Shown: positions 1-29,340 of the stretch, piece by piece
How the letters are laid out: each line of letters opens with the position of its first letter
How positions within the stretch are numbered: the first letter of the stretch is position 1
Origin: Oryzias latipes
Lineage: Eukaryota; Chordata; Actinopteri; Beloniformes; Adrianichthyidae
Assembly: GCF_002234675.1 (NCBI RefSeq)
Contig: NC_019866.2
Coordinates: forward strand, 15,157,261 to 15,221,260
Reading direction: 5' to 3'
Length of the DNA: 64,000 nucleotides
Translations under genes and position numbers: made by a program
Notes under the pieces: generated by a model
What the model was told of the DNA's origin: nothing
Databases searched by the model: none
What the model saw: only the letters and a program-made list of their open reading frames with translations

Positions 1-132
1 TACCTATGTGGTACATACTGGGTATTTATAATATTCTTACTGGGTATTTACATGTTGTGCAAAGGTGTCTTTTGTGGTACGTACCACATGTATGAACAAG
101 GTAAGTACAAATAAAGTACCTTGAATTTAGGG

Positions 133-1306
133 ATTTCCGGTTCCGGGGTTAAGGCAGGACGCGTGGTCGCGGCTCTCTGCGGATACTATCTTCAAATTAC
201 TTAAGAAGTTGATTTTCTCCAAAAAGAGAGCTGACCATGCCCCCGAAGAAACCCCAGGAATATGAAGAGCTCAAAAAATCTCTTGACATTATTCAAGAAA
301 CGCTGAAAAGTTTTATGGATCAAGTGTCGGCTAAGCTAACACCGCTCTGGGATATGATGGAAGAGTTCCGAAGATTTCGGGCTCAAAACGAGCAGGGAGA
401 AAACCGGGTCGAGATTCTGGAGAAAAGACTGGACGATGTGGAACAGCAAGTAAGGATGAATAATGTCATTCTCACTGGAGTACCAATCAAGCCTCGAGCG
501 AAGCTGAATTCAGCAGGAGCTAGCACTGCTAATGCTAGCGCTAGCGTAGCTAGCAGTGCTAATACGGAGATCGACGCGTCGCTGGAGCAGCAAATACATT
601 CATTTCTCACATCTAAAGGGATTTCCCTGGATCTCAATACCATCGAGACCTGCCACCTGCTCCCCAGGAGAAAGGAGACGGATAAACCAGCGATCCTCAT
701 CAGGTTTGTGAATCACAAACACAAGCTAGCTCTGATGAATCAACGCAAAAACCTGAAAGGTTCGGCTGCTTATCTGAACGACCATCTGACAAGAAGGAAT
801 GCTGAAATCTCAAAACATGCACGGCTTCTCAGGAAGCGTAAGCAGATTGAGAACACTTGGGTTAAAGGCTGCAGGATTTATGTCAAACCGCTCGGTCCAG
901 AAGACCGCACCAAGGTTCTGGTCGTGAACACCATGAAGGACTTTGAGAAGTGTTTGATCACGGTCGTCTGAATCAACGTGGAGTAATAAATCAGAGCCAA
1001 ATAATTTCAAGAAATATGACACCTGGAATCTTCACTTTCTCCATAAGTCTGACGTCACCTGAATAACAGCAGAGAGTTCTGACCTGCAGACAATTTGACC
1101 TCAACTTTCACCGCAGCTGATATCAGCTGAAGAAGGATATGGACCTGAATCTAATGTCTGCAGACATAACATGGAAGAGAACTATTAACTGTTTTGAACC
1201 CAGAAGATCAGCTGTTATCAGTAAAAGAAGAAATACCAACCTTGGACAATCGACAGATTGTGGACCCTTTTAAATTTTTTTCCTTACAGCATTACCTTAT
1301 TATAAA

Positions 1307-1338
<32 letters not shown>

Positions 1339-1966
1339 TTAAAAAAGTAAAACAAATGATTAATCACTTATTGAAAATTGTTAAATTGATTGACTTTTGA
1401 TGATATTACTTCACTAGCTCCTAAAATTGATAAAATGATTCAAAAATCTTTCCTAATGTAGCATAATTTTGCACATGTTTTTAACTTTTGATACTTGATG
1501 AAATTTTGCTATGATAACTCCTGAAACAGTGTTGTGTCTATTTTACTGGTATAGTATTATGTTTTAAAGCATATGAATGACTTTTAAAAGTAACATAATT
1601 TGCATATATTTCAGATGCTGCATTTGCCATGTTGATTTCTAAAGTTATTTTTGACGTAGTACTTAAGTAATTTCATCTTTGGCACGTGCTTTATTGATAC
1701 CTTATGATTATTAATTCTGTCTGATAAAACCTAGGAACCGGATATTGATAAATCATGTAATAAAATGGTTATAGTATAACGGGGTGGGATTATATAAGTT
1801 CGCTTCTTTCCACTCCCTTTCAAGCAATTTTTATTAATTATGTCTAATTATCCTAAGTTTGATTAGTTACTGTATGAATGTATAACTGATGATTATATTG
1901 CTCTTGTGTGTATTACTCCTATTTGATTGCTTGAAATAAACCATTTCAAATCAAATCAAATCAATT
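133..1966 (+). mobile_element. Non-LTR retrotransposon (L1/Tx1-like) with ORF1 but no ORF2
   Basis: The insert interrupts the left arm of the foldback element. The junctions are visible because the uninterrupted right arm gives the empty-site sequence. About six bases (AATTTA) are repeated at both ends, as expected for target-primed insertion. The 5' part is GC-rich, followed by one open frame at 237-971. An A-rich stretch lies at 1303-1345 and the tail holds AATAAA at about 1936 and repeated CAAAT units, typical of fish L1-like 3' ends. The whole insert is about 1.8 kb and holds no reverse transcriptase or endonuclease frame. This resembles the half-a-LINE (HAL1) layout known in mammals. The alternative is a simple internal deletion of a full LINE. 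Confidence 0.75.
237..971 (+). CDS. LINE ORF1 protein, intact
   Basis: An open frame of 244 codons starts at an ATG in a reasonable context. Residues about 10-75 are rich in charged and heptad-spaced hydrophobic residues (predicted coiled coil, including LEKRLDDVEQQV). Residues about 85-112 form an Ala/Ser-rich linker. Residues about 115-195 look like the RNA-recognition-type domain of ORF1 proteins (CHLLPRRK, AILIRFVNHKHK), followed by a basic C-terminal part with KGCRIYVKP. ORF1 proteins of this type bind RNA and form trimers that package LINE RNA. The frame carries no stop, which implies a young copy or recent use in trans. The family assignment is by architecture only. Confidence 0.75.
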   Translation: MPPKKPQEYEELKKSLDIIQETLKSFMDQVSAKLTPLWDMMEEFRRFRAQNEQGENRVEILEKRLDDVEQQVRMNNVILTGVPIKPRAKLNSAGASTANASASVASSANTEIDASLEQQIHSFLTSKGISLDLNTIETCHLLPRRKETDKPAILIRFVNHKHKLALMNQRKNLKGSAAYLNDHLTRRNAEISKHARLLRKRKQIENTWVKGCRIYVKPLGPEDRTKVLVVNTMKDFEKCLITVV

Positions 1967-3408
1967 TAAATCTGCACTCGTATGTTTCATAGTATTTACA
2001 ATGAATTTACTACAAAAACTACCCCTTAAGTACACTGAAACTGGACTGTAAAAGAAAGTCAGCCCTATTTCCACTCTATTACATGGTACTTTCAGTAGTA
2101 AATGCTGGGTATGTTCACATATTACCTTCCTATACAGTGTACATACACATTTGGTCTTCTGACCTCACCAAATGAGACAATGCTAACTTGTTGGTAAGGG
2201 TAAAGTATCTGCATTTTAAAAACATATTCTGGCCTGATTACTTCTTGTAACATGTGGCAAATTTAAAGAAAAACAAGACAGCAGTGAAAACAACAATCTT
2301 TAATATGAAACACTTCTGCAGCATACAAAGTGTCATCACAATGAAATTTGTTTTAAGTTCTCAACCAAACAGTAAAAAGGAGCATTCCAAAAAACACATT
2401 ATTGGCCTGAGGGTCATAATTCACAATGCTAGAAATGATTAAATAAGTAAAATATACTTTGTACTTTATAAAAGTCTTTGTGCTTTTTATGTTCATTTGA
2501 GCTTGTATTGTGATTTTTTTTGCAGTTACAAACCCTGAAGAAGTCCTGCACCAAACTCTGCTGAAAGAATTTTGACAGACAAAAAGCGCGACCCTCAGGC
2601 CAATAATCAATAATGTGTTCTTTGGAATGCTCCTTTTTACTGTTTTGTTGAGAACTTAAAACAAATTTCATTGTGATGAGACTTTGTATGCTGCAGAAGT
2701 GTTTCATATTAAAGATTGTTGTTTTCAATGCTGTCTTGTTTCTCTTTAAATTTGGCACGTTACAAGAAGTAATCAGGCCAGAATATGATTTTACAATGCA
2801 CTTTACTTTTTTTTTTACCAACAAGGTAGCATTGTCTCATTTGGTGAGGTCAGAAGACCAAGTGTGTATGTACACTGTATAGGAAGGTAATACGTGAACA
2901 TACCCAGCATTTACTACTGAAAGTACCATGTAATAGAGTGGAAATAGGGCCGACTTCCTTTTACAGCCCAGTTTCAGTGTACTTAAGGGGTAGTTTCTGT
3001 GGTAAATTCATTGTAAATATTATGAAACATACGAGTGCAGACTTAAATTCAAGGTACTTTATTTGTACTTACCTTGTTCATACATGTGGTAAGTACCACA
3101 AAAGACACCTTTACACAACATGTAAATACCCAGGAAGAATATTATAAATACCAAGTATGTACCCCATCGGTATGAACCAAATAGTACCACATAAATACAC
3201 GGTAAGTACCATGTAAGTACAGAGTAGACACAAAAAAGTACCATTCAAGTACCTAGTGAATTCCATAACAAGTACCATGTAAGTACCCAGTAAATTCCAT
3301 AAAAAGTACCATGTAAGTACCCTGAAAGTACCCAGTAGTTACACAATAAGTACCATGTAAATACCACCTAAGTACACTGTAATTACTGTACTGTAAAAGA
3401 AAGCGTTA

Positions 3409-3889: not shown

Positions 3890-3973
3890 TTACTTTTTCC
3901 TGTATTAATCTTGCTGTGTTAAAAAATGCTACTAAGCTAAACTAAGACTAATTTTATGCTTAAAGTCAGTTAA

Positions 3974-4147
3974 CCCATGTGCTATCCTATGACCCCACCC
4001 TTACATTTACGTGTTCTCCCTACCATGACAAAGGTGACTAAAGGTGAAGAGGATTTCATGTAATCCATGGACACCTGTGAATCATTGAAGAAAAAAGGTT
4101 CAGCACACTGTCTTGTGGGGTCTAGATGACCCCACTCCCATTTTCAC
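3974..4147 (+). mobile_element. piggyBac-like MITE, truncated copy
   Basis: It begins TTAA|CCCATGTGCTATCC and matches the complete copy at 7300-7498 through the internal part (CCACCCTTA, TGTTCTCCCTAC, AATCCATGGACACC, CATTGAAGAAAAAAGGTT). The 3' inverted repeat is missing; similarity stops near 4147. There is no coding capacity. Confidence 0.75.
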
Positions 4148-5320
4148 TCATTCCTTTTGAAGCTTCTGTCTTTCAGTCCAAAAATTCCGTTTCTTAACAG
4201 GATGAGGAAACATCTGTTTCTGTGGTGTTCCTGTTTGTTACATTATTTATGTTATAGAGTTGAGGTCTAAAAGTTAATATGTGAACAACTGAACACATAT
4301 TTTATCAAAAGACTTTTACGTTTATTTATTGTCTTAAATCTTTGTCACATTTGTATGAAGGTAAGAAAAAGTTACATTTTGCCTTACAATCTTATACCAA
4401 ATACATGCTTTGGGGACAATAGAAAAGAGGATATTAACATGACCAGATTGTTTTTTTTAAAACATTCAGTAGTAGAATCATTTTGTTTGCTCACTTAACA
4501 GGATTTAGCAGCAGCTTCTTATTAGCTTTATTTTATTAAAGAAGAAGAAGAAGAACAAAAAAATGTTTTGATAGAAAATCTTGTCTAATGCCTGTGTTGA
4601 ATTTGGGTTCCTGTTTTTTAAAATTATGGATTAAATGTTTCATTTCATTTTAGGGCAAACCCTGCTAAGTCATACATGGTCATAAAAAAAAAACGTCACT
4701 CGATGAATGCTTTACTGACTTCTGTTATTTATTTATTTGTTACTTAGTTTGTTTATTAGTTATAGTTAATCTATTTTCTCTTTTAAATATTCTGTAAAAC
4801 TGTGTTTCCTGAAACATAATATTCAGTATTTTAAATTTACAATTATTTTTTTGACCTCTTCCGAAAGTACTTACAGTAAATTGTCTTCTGGAATAAACTG
4901 AAATTTTATTTAAATCTGATAGACATTAAAAAAGTGAATTGGACTTTTACAATTGTTTTAAAATTTGCTTTATGTCAACAGTTGGATAAAAAATGAAACA
5001 CATATATACTTTCTTGCTTCTGTCTTAAATGACAGTAGAATATTTGCAATTGTGCTCTTCAACCTCTTCACCTGAGGTGCCTTTGTAATAACAACCGAGC
5101 AGTATCTAAAGTGATGCTGTTTTATCTAGCTACAATTGAAGGAAGTAGTTGGTATTACGTTTTTATTTTAGTAGAGCATTTCAGCAAAAAACCTAAACAA
5201 ATCTTTTAATTATCATTTAAATATGTGACCTGTCCAAATGTCACTTTATTTCAATGTTCAGGTAATTCTCTAACTGTTTCTGTTTTTCAGAATAAGTGTT
5301 TGGGTTTTCAGCTCAGCTCA
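4148..5320. other. AT-rich intergenic DNA, no gene seen
   Basis: I see only AT-rich sequence with short homopolymers and a GAA run near 4543. JH segments would be expected somewhere on this side of the DH array, but I found no 23-spacer RSS next to a WGxG-coding stretch here. Confidence 0.6.
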
Positions 5321-5390
5321 GGTTTTTGTATTACCATTTCACACTGTGGCTGCCACTCCATCCACAGTGACATATGCTCTAACAAAAACC
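5321..5390 (-). other. IgH diversity (DH) segment with two 12-RSSs
   Basis: On the plus strand the order is nonamer GGTTTTTGT (5321-5329), 12-base spacer, heptamer CACTGTG (5342-5348), 14-base core GCTGCCACTCCATC (5349-5362), heptamer CACAGTG (5363-5369), 12-base spacer and nonamer ACAAAAACC (5382-5390). Both RSSs are fully canonical. The layout is symmetric, so strand is inferred from the minus-strand VH genes. In that sense the core reads GATGGAGTGGCAGC and can encode W-S-G-S in one frame. The 12/23 rule lets it join to JH and VH segments that carry 23-spacers. This is the DH nearest the presumed JH side. Confidence 0.93.
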
Positions 5391-5712
5391 TCCTCCAGGT
5401 TTTCTGATAAGCAGAGCAGGCAAACATTTACGTTCTTAGTTTTTCTTGTTGTGTATTTGTTTTTTCACTATACAATAGTTAAATGTTCTATTGTATAATC
5501 TTAGAAAAATTCCTATTAAGTAAATTTAGAAATATAAATACTTACAGCTGATTTTTTTAAACCTTAAAAAATGGCATTTTTTTGTTGTGTTTTTTTACCT
5601 ATTGATTTTCTTACACAGGTTTGTTCTTTTTTTATGATAAACATGTTTTTGAATCATATTTGTGTCATTATGTGTAGTTTTATACAAAGAATATCCTTTT
5701 TCAGTGAATGTA

Positions 5713-5782
5713 GGTTTTTGTCATTGCATGGATCACTGTGGTTCCCATAGTTTCCACTGTGACTCAGCCCTTTACAAAAACC
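5713..5782 (-). other. IgH diversity (DH) segment with two 12-RSSs
   Basis: On the plus strand: nonamer GGTTTTTGT (5713-5721), 12-base spacer, heptamer CACTGTG (5734-5740), core GTTCCCATAGTTTC (5741-5754), heptamer CACTGTG (5755-5761), 12-base spacer, nonamer ACAAAAACC (5774-5782). The right-hand heptamer differs from CACAGTG at its fourth base, while the essential CAC is kept. In the inferred minus sense the core is GAAACTATGGGAAC and one frame gives N-Y-G-N. Confidence 0.92.
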
Positions 5783-6276
5783 TCACGCTGTTGATCGCTG
5801 CATGATTCTTTTTTATTAGAATTATAACACAACTTAGATACCTTTACTTTTACATTTTAATCTCTAGACTTTTAACAAATATTTTTTCCCCAGTGACTTA
5901 AAAATATGGTATGTAGGTAAAAATCGAGTTTTTACTTTAAGCTCTGTTAAGAAAATGTTAAGAAATGTTTAGATCAATTTTTTTCTTTTTTTCTGTGTGC
6001 AACAAATCCATCAGTATTTTTCTGCTACAAAGTTATGATATAATTTAAATAGAATGAGAAATAAAGGTGGTATAAACTAATAATAGAGAATAAGACTTGG
6101 TTCTTAGAAATGTTTTTAACATAGTAAAAAAAAAAGAGAAATAAAGAACAAAATCACACATTTAACTCATGTTAAATGTTGAATTTCTGTGGAATCCCAA
6201 AAATATGAAAACTTTTTATTTTTATATTTGTTTGAAATTTGAAAAAAGGCTTTAGAATTCAGTTGAAAGCAGAAGA

Positions 6277-6345
6277 GGTTTTTGTATTGCCATTTATCAC
6301 TGTGGCCCCCCAGTATACACTGTGAGAAACAGTCCTACAAAAACC
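6277..6345 (-). other. IgH diversity (DH) segment with two 12-RSSs
   Basis: On the plus strand: nonamer GGTTTTTGT (6277-6285), 12-base spacer, heptamer CACTGTG (6298-6304), 13-base core GCCCCCCAGTATA (6305-6317), heptamer CACTGTG (6318-6324, fourth base non-consensus), 12-base spacer, nonamer ACAAAAACC (6337-6345). In the inferred minus sense the core is TATACTGGGGGGC, giving Y-T-G-G in one frame, a tyrosine/glycine content usual for DH. Confidence 0.92.
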
Positions 6346-6523
6346 TGCCCACAAAACCTGATGGGACTTTTAAACTTTTTGGGTTAATTTGCCTTAAGGA
6401 TTTAACATATTTGAAACTTACTTATTTTTTATGTGAGTGACTGAACAGACATATGTACTTAAACATGGAAATGTATTTTAAAGGAAGATAATAAAAGAAA
6501 GAACTTAAGAAAAAGTACAACAT

Positions 6524-7715
6524 AGTTTTAGGGCCAGAATACAAAAAAAAAAAAAAAAAATTTTATTTTATGAGATTTTCAAAAATCTCATAGATTTGCG
6601 AGTGTTTTTCTCGTAAATTTACGACTAAAAATCTTGTAAATTTGCAAAAAAAAGTTTTTGATTAACAAGGAAAAAACACCAAAGTTGTCTGTTTATCTGA
6701 GCCTAGCTTGAAGATGAAAGATGTGGAGCATTTTGTGAAGCTTTATTTCCATATAGGTTACAAAAACAAAGAGATTCTTAATTTTTTGGCGACTAAAATC
6801 AGATAATTGTCAGTGTAGCTGGCTTTCCGGAGTTCTGTGTCGATAAAACAGAGTTTCATATGTAAAATAAGGAGCCCAGAGACACGTTTGGGTGGAGAGG
6901 ACGGCAAACTTTACTTCCTTTTCATTCACAAACCCAGAAGTCCATTTGTCACCTGATGTCATGAACCTTTCATGCACAGAAGACCAATGCAAAAGTAGAC
7001 AGTTTCACATACGCCCCCTCCTCCAGATGAAACGTCCCATTTCAACATAAAACAACAAAGAGGAAAATAGTCTGATAAATTATTATTATTAGAACATTGA
7101 AATTGCCATAAAGTGTGCCTCCTCAAACGGAAGTGTCACACAAACGTAGAGATCTTGTCTTTCGTGGAGGAAGAAAGGATTAAAGTGAACAGCTGCAGGG
7201 ATACGATGGCTTCATCAACGGGTCGCAGAGATCCTGCAAAACATCCATCAATAAATAAAACATTATTGAAAATTGTGAATCAAACAAATGAGCTTTTAAC
7301 CCTTGTGCTATCTTAGATGACCCCACCCTTACGTGTTCTCCCTACATTGACAAAGGTGGATAAAGGTGGAAAGATTTCATTTAATCCATGGACACCAGTG
7401 AGGTTCACAAATCATTGAAGAAAAAAGGTTTAGCCCACTGTCTAGTGGGTCTAAATGACCCAAATCCCAATGTTAAAGTACCTAGGATAGCACAAGGGTT
7501 AATCATTTGGAACATTATCAATAAACATTCAGCTCACCTGTTCAACTAAGTTTTGTCGGTCTGTTCTGCTGCTGCGTGGCGTTCACTTGCTGCTGCAATG
7601 TATGCTCACTTTGACTGTATTCTTGTAAATTTACGAATTTTTTTATCATAAATTTATTACTTGAAATCTCGCAATTTTACTTATTTATTTATTTATTTTT
7701 GGTGGCCCTAAAACT
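6524..7715. mobile_element. Non-autonomous DNA transposon, possibly related to fish integrase-like elements
   Basis: Ends are inverted: AGTTTTAGGGCC at 6524 and GGCCCTAAAACT ending near 7715. Sub-terminal stretches on both sides repeat CGTAAATTTACGA-like words. Near 6713-6805 a short plus-strand frame reads KDVEHFVKLYFHIGYKN then EILNFLA. That resembles, from memory, the N-terminus of multicopy integrase-core transposases of fish; it then ends in a stop. The rest has no usable coding capacity, so this is a deletion derivative. A piggyBac-like MITE is inserted at 7300-7498. The superfamily (IS3EU-like) is a tentative inference. Confidence 0.6.
7300..7498. mobile_element. Complete piggyBac-like MITE (nested)
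   Basis: It is bounded by TTAA at 7296-7299 and 7499-7502, the target duplication typical of piggyBac. Terminal inverted repeats are CCCTTGTGCTATC on the left and GATAGCACAAGGG on the right. Length is 199 bases with no open frame. It lies inside the 6524-7715 element, so it is the younger insertion. A truncated relative lies at 3974-4147. Confidence 0.85.
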
Positions 7716-8024
7716 CAGTTGTACAAAAAGGAAAAAAGAAAACAGTTTTATTTTAAAATAAATGAGAAAACTGTACCTCTTAAAATAATGATAAATTTTG
7801 TTTTCAAACTTTTAAAAATGTTTACTTATTGGTTAGATAAATACAACTTGGTGTTATATTCCTGACATCACTGCTGTTTATTTTATGTTTATCTGATAAA
7901 TACATTTTTACCAGTAAAATGTTTTTATTGAATGCATTTTTTTTACATGCTTGTTTTTGTTTGTGCTTTTTTTAATATTAGATTTAATTTAATAGATGTC
8001 ACACATGACTTATAAAAGGCAGGA

Positions 8025-8092
8025 GGTTTTTGTCATGGCGTTTTTCACTGTGGTTGCTATACCACACGGTGACACAACCCTGAACAAAAACT
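8025..8092 (-). other. IgH diversity (DH) segment with two 12-RSSs
   Basis: On the plus strand: nonamer GGTTTTTGT (8025-8033), 12-base spacer, heptamer CACTGTG (8046-8052), 12-base core GTTGCTATACCA (8053-8064), heptamer CACGGTG (8065-8071), 12-base spacer, nonamer ACAAAAACT (8084-8092). The left RSS is canonical. The right one has one change in the heptamer and one in the nonamer. In the inferred minus sense the core is TGGTATAGCAAC (W-Y-S-N in one frame). It is the DH closest to the VH genes. Confidence 0.9.
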
Positions 8093-10691: not shown

Positions 10692-10730
10692 GGTTTTTGT
10701 GCAGCTGCTTCACTGTCTTCAGTCACTGTG
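10692..10730 (-). promoter_or_regulatory. 23-RSS of the 10.7-kb VH gene
   Basis: Read on the minus strand: heptamer CACAGTG (10730-10724), 23-base spacer, nonamer ACAAAAACC (10700-10692). Both motifs are canonical and directly abut the V-region end, as required for V-to-DJ joining. Confidence 0.95.
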
Positions 10731-11158
10731 CTTGATCGTGCACAGAAGTAAACAGCAGAATCTTCTGCTGTCAGGCTGCTGATCTCGAGGTACTGAGAGC
10801 TGCTGGACACAACTTCAGTCATGAGGAAACGACCCTGAAAAGAACTGGAATATGTGGGAGAGTTGTTTCCTGTGTTCATACGTCCAATCCACTCCAGAGC
10901 TCTTCCTGGTTTCTGTCTGATCCAGTGGATGTAGAAGCTTGTCATGCTATAACCAGAACAGACACATGACATCTTCACAGTTTCTCCAGGTTTTTTCACC
11001 ACATTTGGACTCTGATCCAGTTTGATCTGACTCAAGACTCCTGTAAGAAAAACAAATCATCATAAATCCAATGATGAACATTTGTAATTATTAATTATAT
11101 ATTTAATTTTCTCACCTTGCAGGAAAAGTAAAAATACTAAACTCCAGATTTGTGTCAT
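10731..11158 (-). CDS. Immunoglobulin heavy-chain V gene (VH), apparently functional
   Basis: Two exons. The leader exon (11158-11116) encodes [14 protein letters not shown], a hydrophobic signal peptide, and ends at a GTGAG donor. The V exon (11040-10731) starts after TTCTTACAG, completes the leader (GVLS) and encodes framework 1 with the first Cys (VKMSCVCSG), the framework 2 core [14 protein letters not shown], and framework 3 ending [12 protein letters not shown]. The invariant Cys, Trp and Cys are all present with no stop. The exon runs straight into a 23-RSS. Product: antigen-binding variable domain after V(D)J joining in B cells. A second cysteine next to CDR1 (C-V-C) is unusual. No perfect octamer was found upstream. 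Only one other VH lies in the window. Confidence 0.93.
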
Positions 11159-12911: not shown

Positions 12912-12950
12912 GGTTTTTGTAAAGCCTTCATGGTAACATGAACCACTGTG
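12912..12950 (-). promoter_or_regulatory. 23-RSS of the 13-kb VH gene
   Basis: Read on the minus strand: heptamer CACAGTG (12950-12944), 23-base spacer, nonamer ACAAAAACC (12920-12912). Both are canonical. Confidence 0.95.
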
Positions 12951-13396
12951 GTTGGCGGGCACAGTAATACAAAGCAGAATCTTCTGGCTTTAGATCGGAC
13001 AGTTTCAGATAAACAAAACTGTTGCTGTTGTCTCTGGTGATTTCTGTTCGTCCTTGCAAACTGTCGGCATAAACAGTTTTACTTGCATCATACCAAATAG
13101 CCCCAATCCATTCCAGTGATTTTCCCACAGGTTGTCTAATCCAGTTCATGCCATATTGGTCAAAACGAAATCCAGAGCCTTTGCAGGAAAGACTGAGGAC
13201 TTCCTGAGGCTTTTTAACCATTGAAGTGGAGGGAATGGACTCCAGAGCCTGTCCATTCAAACCTGCTGACAAAGAAGAGTTTAAAGGAGATTTGTGAAAT
13301 TAAGAAATATAATTTTCTTTTTTTTCTTTTTTTTGGTCCGAATAACTTACAAGGTAGATAAAGAGTTATAAACAGGACAGAGAGTTTGACCATCAT
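12951..13396 (-). CDS. Immunoglobulin heavy-chain V gene (VH), apparently functional
   Basis: Two exons. The leader exon (13396-13351) begins ATGATG and encodes a signal peptide (MMVKLSVLFITLYLP), ending at GTAAGT. The V exon (13262-12951) follows a CAG acceptor. It encodes the leader end (CLNG), framework 1 with Cys (VLSLSCKGSGF), framework 2 WIRQPVGKSLEWIG, framework 3 RTEITRDNSNSFVYLKLSD and the PEDSALYYCAR end. There are no stops, the conserved Cys-Trp-Cys are present, and it abuts a canonical 23-RSS. It is clearly from a different VH family than the 10.7-kb gene. A perfect octamer lies 77-84 bases upstream of the start codon. It is the most 5' (V-end) segment seen, and the next gene to the right is atp6v0c. 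Confidence 0.94.
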
Positions 13397-13480: not shown

Positions 13481-16400
13481 TTGGGTAGATAAAGGGAGGA
13501 GTCAACCTGCCTGATTTAAATATAGTGTATATGAAGTTTGATGACAGAGAAAAAAACGGCAATTCCAAGGATTTAATGTACCGGTAAATATGATCAAACT
13601 TCCTGTGTTGCTGAAGGCACTTATTGAAAGGAACGAAAGGCTAAGAATTTTCTACAAAGACTTTAAAGTCCAGTACAGTGGACTCTGCAGGTTTGAAGAA
13701 ACACAGATTGAAATTTAAAATAAGTCCCAGAATACAGGAAATGACCTCTTTCTGTTTTAGAGGAAGACTTACTGCAGTGAGATGGGATTTGAATTATAAA
13801 TGGAGAGAAAAAAATAGATTATAGTAAATTTTCCACATGACAGATCAGCTTTTCATTGGTTTGAAATGTTGTTGCCTCCACCGGGCACAGTTTCTATTTG
13901 TAAAGCCTCATTTGAAAAGTTTGCAATCAAAAGAATTTTAAATACCGGTACATTTCTAAACATTTTTCAAGATGTAGCTTTAAGTTGATAAGCGGTGCAA
14001 GAACTCCATTGTGGGCTTTCTGCAATCAATAATTCTTTGATCAGGTCCACTGATGTTATTAGCTCTGTGTGGTGCCTCCCCTTAGTAAAACACAGTAATT
14101 TCCACAGGCTATATGACACTTTCATTTAGAATTCCAATGTATCTAAAGAATTAAAGATTAGAATGAAGAATTTATCCAGTTATGGAAATTTTCTGTTGAA
14201 CTTGATAAAAATAACATTGTTTTCAAACCCGAGCACCAAAGACAACCACAAATATCTTCCTAAAGGCTGTCTGATCCAAGAAACTCTTCCTTTATTTATT
14301 TTACAATGTTTTATTGTAAAATAAAACATTGTAAAATAAATAAAGGAAGAGTTTACAATGTTTTATTGTCTTTACTGAATGAATTATAGCTTCTAAAGAT
14401 CTCTGGTCACAGCAAACCTCTAATTCGTTACATTTAAGTGGATATTTTTCTCCTGGCAGAACTGCTGCTTTCAGAATTTATTCTGACAAACTTTTTTATT
14501 GGTTATAATGAAAAGTTTTCTCTTTACACAGTTTGGTGTTGAAGAGGTTTGCAAAAACACAACTGAAAGTCAGTTTCACAGACGTTGAGCTCGACAGGAC
14601 AGAGTGATCCGGTTATTCAGTTAGAGGAAGCTTTGTTCAACACCCAGCTCCCAAAAAAGTCCAGAAAGACAGAAGTGAAAGGACAGAAAGAGCAGCAGAG
14701 CATGGCAGACTGCAGGTGTGAGGTGTGGTTATGCCAGGAACACAAAACAGAGAAGATGGAAATATCTCATCTTTGTTTACATAAGCTTTGTCAAAGGTTT
14801 GACTTCAACCATCAAGTGGTTTGATGAAAACTTCAGACAAGATAAAACATGCATAAACTTGAACTTCACAAAAATGAAACCCCAGAAAAAGATTGTGGAG
14901 CGAATAAATTCTTATTTTCACTATTTTATTTAAATAAGAAAAATATATGGAAAATAGAAATGTTGAAATAAAATAACAGGTCAAAGGCCAGCATTAAAAG
15001 CTGATTTTTAATTGATTTCTTTAAAAAGAGTTTTATGATTTTTATTTGATTGTTTTTATAAATTGTATGTATAAGTAAACTGAAGCTTCAGAAACTAAAT
15101 TAGGATTTATTTTATTTCGAACCTTCAGAAAAAAACATGTGAGGAAAACAGCTAATGGTTTTCTTACATCAGTTTGTAAATGAACAAAAATGATAGTAGG
15201 AACATTATTAATAAAGTTCAGAACTAATTTGAACATTATTGTTTTTCTGAATTTGCTTAAATTATCCACAAGAGGGAGACAGAGCTCCAGAAACAGCTTC
15301 CCCAGTGTAAATTAAAGTAAATAAGCGTATTGCTTATCTTTACTGTTTTTATTTTATTTTAGAGTGGATTCCAAAGGAGAAGAGGAAACTATAAGTAAAC
15401 TAGTTTCCAACATTGGAATTAATAAATGAAGAATAACAGCACAAAAAACACAAAAAAGTCAAAGAATTTCAGAAAATGTATATATACAAATGTAACAAAT
15501 GATCTAGTTTGTACGTTAGAGTGGCTTTACGTTGAATCAGTATGTCACTTATCAGAGATACAGGTTTACTCTACAACAATTTAATATGATATAAAATGAA
15601 CAAGCTATTCTTTCAAGAGTCATTTGGGAAAAACCAGTACTTTTTTTTGTCTGTTGTATTACTGTAACTGAATTTCGCTGAATTGTAAATATGATATCTT
15701 TTCAGGTTACAAAACACCAGATGTTGCAGATTATCTAATTTACAATCTGCTAATGTGGTTCGAAGCAGACTTATCTATTAGTTTTTTGAAAAAATATTAA
15801 AATGACCTTTTTGCCACCTTAAACGGCATAATGTCCACAAAGAGTTTAGGGAGAAACGTACATCACAAAGGGTGTCAATCGCAGGGGCCATCTTGCCACA
15901 GAAAATAAGCTTACATCCCAGAGAAATTTTGACTTTTTTTTTATTAGTTTAGATTTTGTAAAGCCTTTAGATTAAAATGGTCATAATAAATATTTTAAGC
16001 AAAAAAGACCCTAGAAAGTTTTTCAAAGTATAAACAGTGCAAGTCTGCCCCCTGCTGTTCAAATAGTAAACATCAACCTGGCAATTACTAAACCCCAACA
16101 AACTGGAACTATAAGAACTTCCTGTTCAAACCAAAGACTCTTAAATTTTTTGTTGATGTTTCCTTAAATTCTTTGTCTAGTTTAATGCTCTTCGATTGAG
16201 ATATTATGCATTTGCATTGTTCAATTGATACAGTCAAGCACCATAATGTGCTGGTTTGATATTAAAGACGGCACATTTGGATTTTTCCAAACATCTTTGA
16301 ATCTTCCTTTCCTCAAATCTGCTATATAAAAATGTTTTCATGCAAAAAGACCAAACCTCACTGCTTAGGTGGCTTGTTACCGATTTATTAAATATCCTTT

Positions 16401-28599: not shown

Positions 28600-29340
28600 A
28601 TAATAAACTTAGCTGTTGAGCATATATCAAACCTCAACGAGGCATCCTGCACCGTTTCGAACACTAATATGCGGCTGCAGCTTTCTATAAAGTCGCTCTA
28701 ATCCCTTAAACAGCTCACACCAGCGACTGAGGGAGTGTTTTAATTAATTTAAGCTTGGTTTTAGCTTTGCTACGGCAGCCTGCTAGCCACGCGCTGACAA
28801 AACACAACGGCTAACCTCAGCACAAAAAGCGCATTGCAGGATATTCCTTTGAATGTCCACTCACCTGAAAGCACGAGACGAGCTCCAAATATGCTATCCA
28901 GCAACTAGTCGCAGTGTCCAAAAGTGACCCAATTAAATAAAACAATAAAGCGCAATTCTAGACCCAACAGCCGACCACCATGCGCGCTGGCTGTTGGTAA
29001 AAAAATAATTATCATAAAATAAAAAATAAAACAGCTAACCCCCAGCCGTTTAGCTCACTATGTTGACCTCCGCTTATGCGTTTGATCAACGGCCTCTATT
29101 AAAACAAAAGCTGGAACGTAGCAAGGCTAGTAGGCAATGGCGGAAAAAGCCAAGCAGTCTGACGAGAGAAAAATTTGCTTTGTTTTTGAAAACACGCAGA
29201 TGGAGGAAATGTGAGGAGTGCAAAACAAACCTCCGTCAGCCAATCAGCGCCGCCGCGCGGCCTTTAGAAAATGGGTCAACCAATCAGAATCCGTCTCGCG
29301 AGCTCCTTATGGCTATCAATTTAATTACTGCGTGTTGTGT
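28600..29340 (-). promoter_or_regulatory. Likely ypel3 promoter and 5' non-coding exon region
   Basis: A non-coding exon appears to end at 28865 (CAG|GTGAG on the minus strand). Upstream the sequence is CpG-richer and has two CCAAT-type motifs on the plus strand (AGCCAATCAGCG near 29237, AACCAATCAGAA near 29278). These are inverted relative to ypel3. The start site is not directly visible. Confidence 0.4.

Follow-up and report, generated by a model that had tools for sequence, protein, structure and literature searches.

The window, the whole 64,000-nucleotide stretch of medaka contig 8 that was analysed, carries four short units on its minus strand, each built around a core and flanked by 12-RSSs, together with two VH genes (Table 1). 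The order nonamer-12-heptamer-core-heptamer-12-nonamer is exact in all four units, with spacers of 12 bases on both sides and the two RSSs opposed. The initial annotation had described four DH units of about 70 bases, with cores of 12 to 14 bases between paired 12-RSSs, and each was found where it had been placed, with 12-base spacers throughout. Its further description of the array as compact holds for three of the D segments, which lie within 1.0 kb, but not for the fourth, which is separated from the others by an inserted repeat of approximately 1.2 kb.

Table 1. Immunoglobulin gene segments and inserted repeat in the window. Positions are window coordinates; RSS mismatches are given as left/right on the plus strand.
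Feature	Position	Strand	Description
D segment 4, nearest JH	5321..5390	-	70 bases; core GATGGAGTGGCAGC, 14 bases; 12-RSS 5' and 3', both perfect; mismatches 0/0; has paralogues
D segment 3	5713..5782	-	70 bases; core GAAACTATGGGAAC, 14 bases; 12-RSS 5' and 3'; mismatches 0/1; has paralogues
D segment 2	6277..6345	-	69 bases; core TATACTGGGGGGC, 13 bases; 12-RSS 5' and 3'; mismatches 0/1; has paralogues
Insertion of ~1.2 kb	6515..7724		carries terminal inverted repeats; lies in the D1-D2 interval
D segment 1, most 5'	8025..8092	-	68 bases; core TGGTATAGCAAC, 12 bases; 12-RSS 5' and 3'; mismatches 0/2; paralogues in other blocks
23-RSS of VH gene a	10692..10730	-	0 mismatches
VH gene a	10731..11158	-	leader exon with ATG at 11158; intron; V exon open, final residues YFCARSS; Pfam V-set E 9.5e-13
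23-RSS of VH gene b	12912..12950	-	0 mismatches
VH gene b	12951..13396	-	leader exon with ATG at 13396; intron; V exon open, final residues YYCARQ; Pfam V-set E 1.3e-10

RSSs were scored on both strands by their mismatches to the 12-RSS consensus, CACAGTG/ACAAAAACC. Eight 12-RSSs in the 64-kb window start with CAC and have no more than two mismatches, and all eight fall within the four D units; allowing three mismatches adds only an isolated 12-RSS-like site at window 28803-28830. In 200 simulated first-order Markov sequences of 64 kb each, such sites averaged 0.05 per sequence (maximum 1) and not a single D-type unit appeared. The idea that AT-rich DNA produced the D units by chance resemblance to the RSS consensus is rejected by this result, and the existence of paralogues and the VH, JH and constant surroundings described below also speak against it, making a chance origin vanishingly improbable.

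The insertion between D segments 1 and 2 is missing at the corresponding site in all six of the other copies whose alignments flank that site. Inside it, at window 7296-7502, lies an element of approximately 200 bp with inverted ends (TTAACCCTTGTGCTATC...), and a stretch resembling this element was seen by eye at about 3970-4170. Further repeats occupy window 1-3172, where the arms of large inverted repeats (1947-2197/2815-3065, 2254-2404/2608-2758 and 1-129/3044-3172) are 93-96% complementary. The same region holds a 252-amino acid open frame, at 213-971, with no Pfam match, and these repeats and the open frame are probably nested transposable elements.

Both VH genes lie on the minus strand, upstream of the D array in the sense of transcription. 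Their leader exons and splice sites were assigned by visual inspection. Each V exon is open and has a Pfam V-set match, and both 23-RSSs are perfect, in agreement with the earlier claim that two 23-RSS-bearing VH genes share the strand of the D array. A Pfam scan of 20 of the 28 stop-to-stop open reading frames of at least 110 amino acids (E 0.001) found no match other than these two exons. Each VH gene was used as a query against the whole genome (734,051,031 bases in 25 contigs). VH gene b gave at least 74 matches (150 of 160 candidates scored), all of them within approximately 525 kb of contig 8 (14.645-15.171 Mb). On the plus strand there are 72 of these, some of them partial and 16 with internal stop codons, and the two on the minus strand are the VH genes of the window. 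VH gene a, for which 150 of 306 candidates were scored, gave at least 75 matches, of which 71 fall on contig 8 and four on contigs 22, 17 and 11, and again the only minus-strand matches listed on contig 8 are the window's two VH genes. Among the matches listed, VH gene a has four relatives in the locus at 90-93% identity, and no relative of VH gene b exceeds 54% identity among the 73 others. No match to either gene was found beyond 15.171 Mb on contig 8 among those listed, and it is for this reason, no flanking non-Ig gene being named, that the window is placed at the edge of the locus.

JH segments and constant exons had been expected to the left of the window, where 100 kb of sequence, the 120 kb before that and 40 kb further off were examined. 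Five JH-like segments are present on the minus strand at chromosome positions 15120094-15121699, two with 23-RSSs of one to two mismatches and three with poor ones of four to six. Behind them, at 15108984-15119421 and likewise on the minus strand, are eleven Ig-constant-like open stretches, and all ten of those tested score above the Pfam C1-set cut-off of 21 bits, two only narrowly, at 21.8 bits. The D array thus lies between VH and JH-CH on one strand, and the partners are those of the 12/23 rule, with a 23-RSS at VH, 12-RSSs on both sides of D and a 23-RSS at JH. These findings support reading the window as the border of a teleost-type IgH locus whose VH and D segments are unrearranged, with all parts on the minus strand, VH upstream and JH and constant exons to the left. 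The interval from D segment 4 (15162581) to the nearest JH RSS end (15121755) is 40.8 kb, three to five times larger than the D-to-JH intervals of three other blocks (8.4, 9.8 and 13.1 kb). The constant-like exons run in groups of one, four, two and four, and the near identity of the two groups of four marks an internal duplication of the inverted block. Glycine-rich, low-complexity open frames that look alike by eye occur on contig 8 near 14985, 14996, 15042 and 15141-15143 kb, one group being inside the D-J interval of the inverted block.

In a whole-genome pattern search combined with relaxed scans, forward blocks at 14749-14751, 14838-14841, 14851-14853 and 14929-14931 kb each proved to carry the complete set of D types in the order seen in the window, and further forward blocks are partial, with a single D at 14994 kb and three D at 15067-15068 kb. 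For each D type, five to seven copies were aligned; the count was restricted to columns that the window copy also has, and gaps were scored as variation. D1 of the 14838-kb block was missed by the scan on account of its 5' heptamer and was entered manually, placed by its exact 3' RSS, and a lone D1-like 3' RSS at 15052113 was left out of the count. Variable columns make up 3 of 128 in the heptamers and nonamers, 6 of 96 in the spacers, 15 of 53 in the cores and 438 of 1200 in the flanks. Motifs therefore vary far less than flanks (Fisher p 1.2e-19), in a test that is partly biased because the copies were found through their own RSSs and the columns of related copies are non-independent, and cores and flanks vary about equally (p 0.25). 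Such a pattern, in which the RSSs are held while the cores vary like their surroundings, suits D segments, and gene conversion may contribute to the likeness among the copies. The D1 paralogue at contig 8 14838157-14838224 has a perfect 3' RSS and a 5' heptamer that starts CGC rather than CAC, and judging from this substitution it is probably disabled; the 5' heptamer of D1 in the window, unlike that of the 14838-kb copy, is undamaged. The core of D segment 3 is shared with two other blocks and for that reason is not diagnostic for the inverted block. The pattern search gave 114 hits; its listing for contig 8 appears complete, and among the matches listed, the RSS-pattern sites outside contig 8 lie in three clusters on contig 11, at about 1.90-2.47, 3.69-3.88 and 6.80-6.91 Mb. 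Two V-like matches to VH gene a overlap RSS-pattern sites on that contig, and the clusters are probably Ig light-chain V genes.

The published map of the medaka IGH locus divides about 450 kb of chromosome 8 into five zones, in which D segments were recognised from the RSSs on their 5' and 3' sides (Magadan-Mompo et al. 2011; PMC3141427). In that map, drawn on the October 2005 assembly, zone 5 is inverted and has inverted D segments (PMC3141427). The block described here is the last of the contig 8 IGH locus, is inverted and carries D segments. We conclude that the four units are almost certainly the germline DH segments of this inverted V-D-J-C block, which corresponds to the published zone 5 and closes a medaka-type IGH locus at its distal end, and we infer that they recombine and are expressed.

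The enlarged D-JH distance of approximately 41 kb, the poor 23-RSSs of three of the five JH-like segments and the thin EST support in print count against this reading. These features would fit with the array being an unused relic, its RSSs intact only through recent copying or gene conversion and zone 5 making little or no antibody, as would the duplicated constant exons. The zone 5 ESTs are two secreted and two membrane ESTs in Table 2 of the 2011 study, where the figure in the text differs and stands under an apparently wrong zone name, and zone x, made of unplaced scaffolds, was assigned to zone 5 only tentatively (PMC3141427). However, all eight RSSs of the window keep CAC with at most two mismatches, whereas a damaged D1 5' heptamer does occur at 14838 kb; the 3 variable columns among 128 in the motifs stand against about a third of those in the flanks, and both VH genes are open with perfect RSSs. 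A relic is accordingly the unlikely reading, although one that retains some weight.

IGH loci contain many repeats and are easily misassembled, and no other block among those seen is inverted, so that its orientation could be an assembly artefact and the block truly forward. The sequence is joined over 284 kb without N, which does not by itself exclude misassembly, and the inversion of zone 5 had already been reported from the October 2005 assembly (PMC3141427). We consider an artefact very improbable.

If the units are the DH segments of zone 5, their position relative to the other segments allows a route of joining to be proposed. D-to-JH and V-to-D joining in IgH loci are carried out by RAG under the 12/23 rule. 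RAG1/RAG2 would initially join the 3' 12-RSS of a D segment to the 23-RSS of a minus-strand JH approximately 41 kb to the left, after which the 5' 12-RSS of the same D would be joined to a VH 23-RSS, and the core of 12 to 14 bases would become the middle of CDR-H3. The two minus-strand VH genes of the window would be used by deletional joining. A forward VH of the locus, on the other hand, could form a productive join to a zone 5 DJ-C only by inversion, because the JH and constant exons of zone 5 sit between that VH and the D array. Deletional joining of a forward VH to a D 3' RSS would also be possible, but would remove the zone 5 JH and constant exons.

One such forward VH lies at 15102555-15102944 and has a perfect 23-RSS at 15102881-15102919. 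No forward D-J-C is present to its right in the sequence examined, and the only 12-RSSs found to its right (by exact consensus along contig 8, and with up to three mismatches as far as the end of the window) belong to the zone 5 array, apart from the isolated one at window 28803. Since no forward D-J-C follows and deletion would remove the zone 5 JH and constant exons, this VH seems limited to inversion for a productive join, trans joining aside. It is conceivable, and we put it forward tentatively as something less than an even prospect, that the inverted zone 5 works as a self-contained V2-D4-J-C antibody unit and also uses forward VHs by inversional V-to-DJ joining. Literature searches found no report of inversional joining in medaka IgH, which is weak evidence of absence, and no medaka IgH repertoire paper by title. 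Inversional heavy-chain joining in a teleost becomes testable with these segments, and block-specific bases could let expressed CDR3s be assigned to blocks.

An inverted, D-bearing zone at this end of the medaka locus has been known since 2011 (PMC3141427), and our results leave the general understanding unchanged; they confirm and sharpen a published but gapped map, adding the four zone 5 D cores and their VH, JH and constant partners in an N-free stretch. The likeness to the published zone 5 extends to the chromosome or contig 8, the several V-D-J-C blocks of which the last is inverted with inverted D, and the presence of VH between zones (PMC3141427). In the earlier map a gap of approximately 30 kb left zone 5 without IgM exons, whereas here there is no N, and a single strand can be seen to carry two VH, four D, JH-like segments and constant exons (PMC3141427). 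Bradshaw and Valenzano (2020) re-annotated the medaka IGH constant regions on the newer assembly GCA_002234675.1, with reversed orientation marked in their Figure 4 according to its legend; D segments of medaka, which are given here, are not described in the passages of that paper that were examined (PMC7287348). For teleost light chains, inversional joining is documented (PMC3014032; PMC5192425). The zebrafish IgL clusters encode a light chain without D, whereas the medaka block belongs to a heavy chain for which inversion is a prediction, and what the two share is an arrangement of teleost Ig genes facing opposite ways, with inversion as the mode of joining in zebrafish and the predicted one in medaka (PMC3014032).
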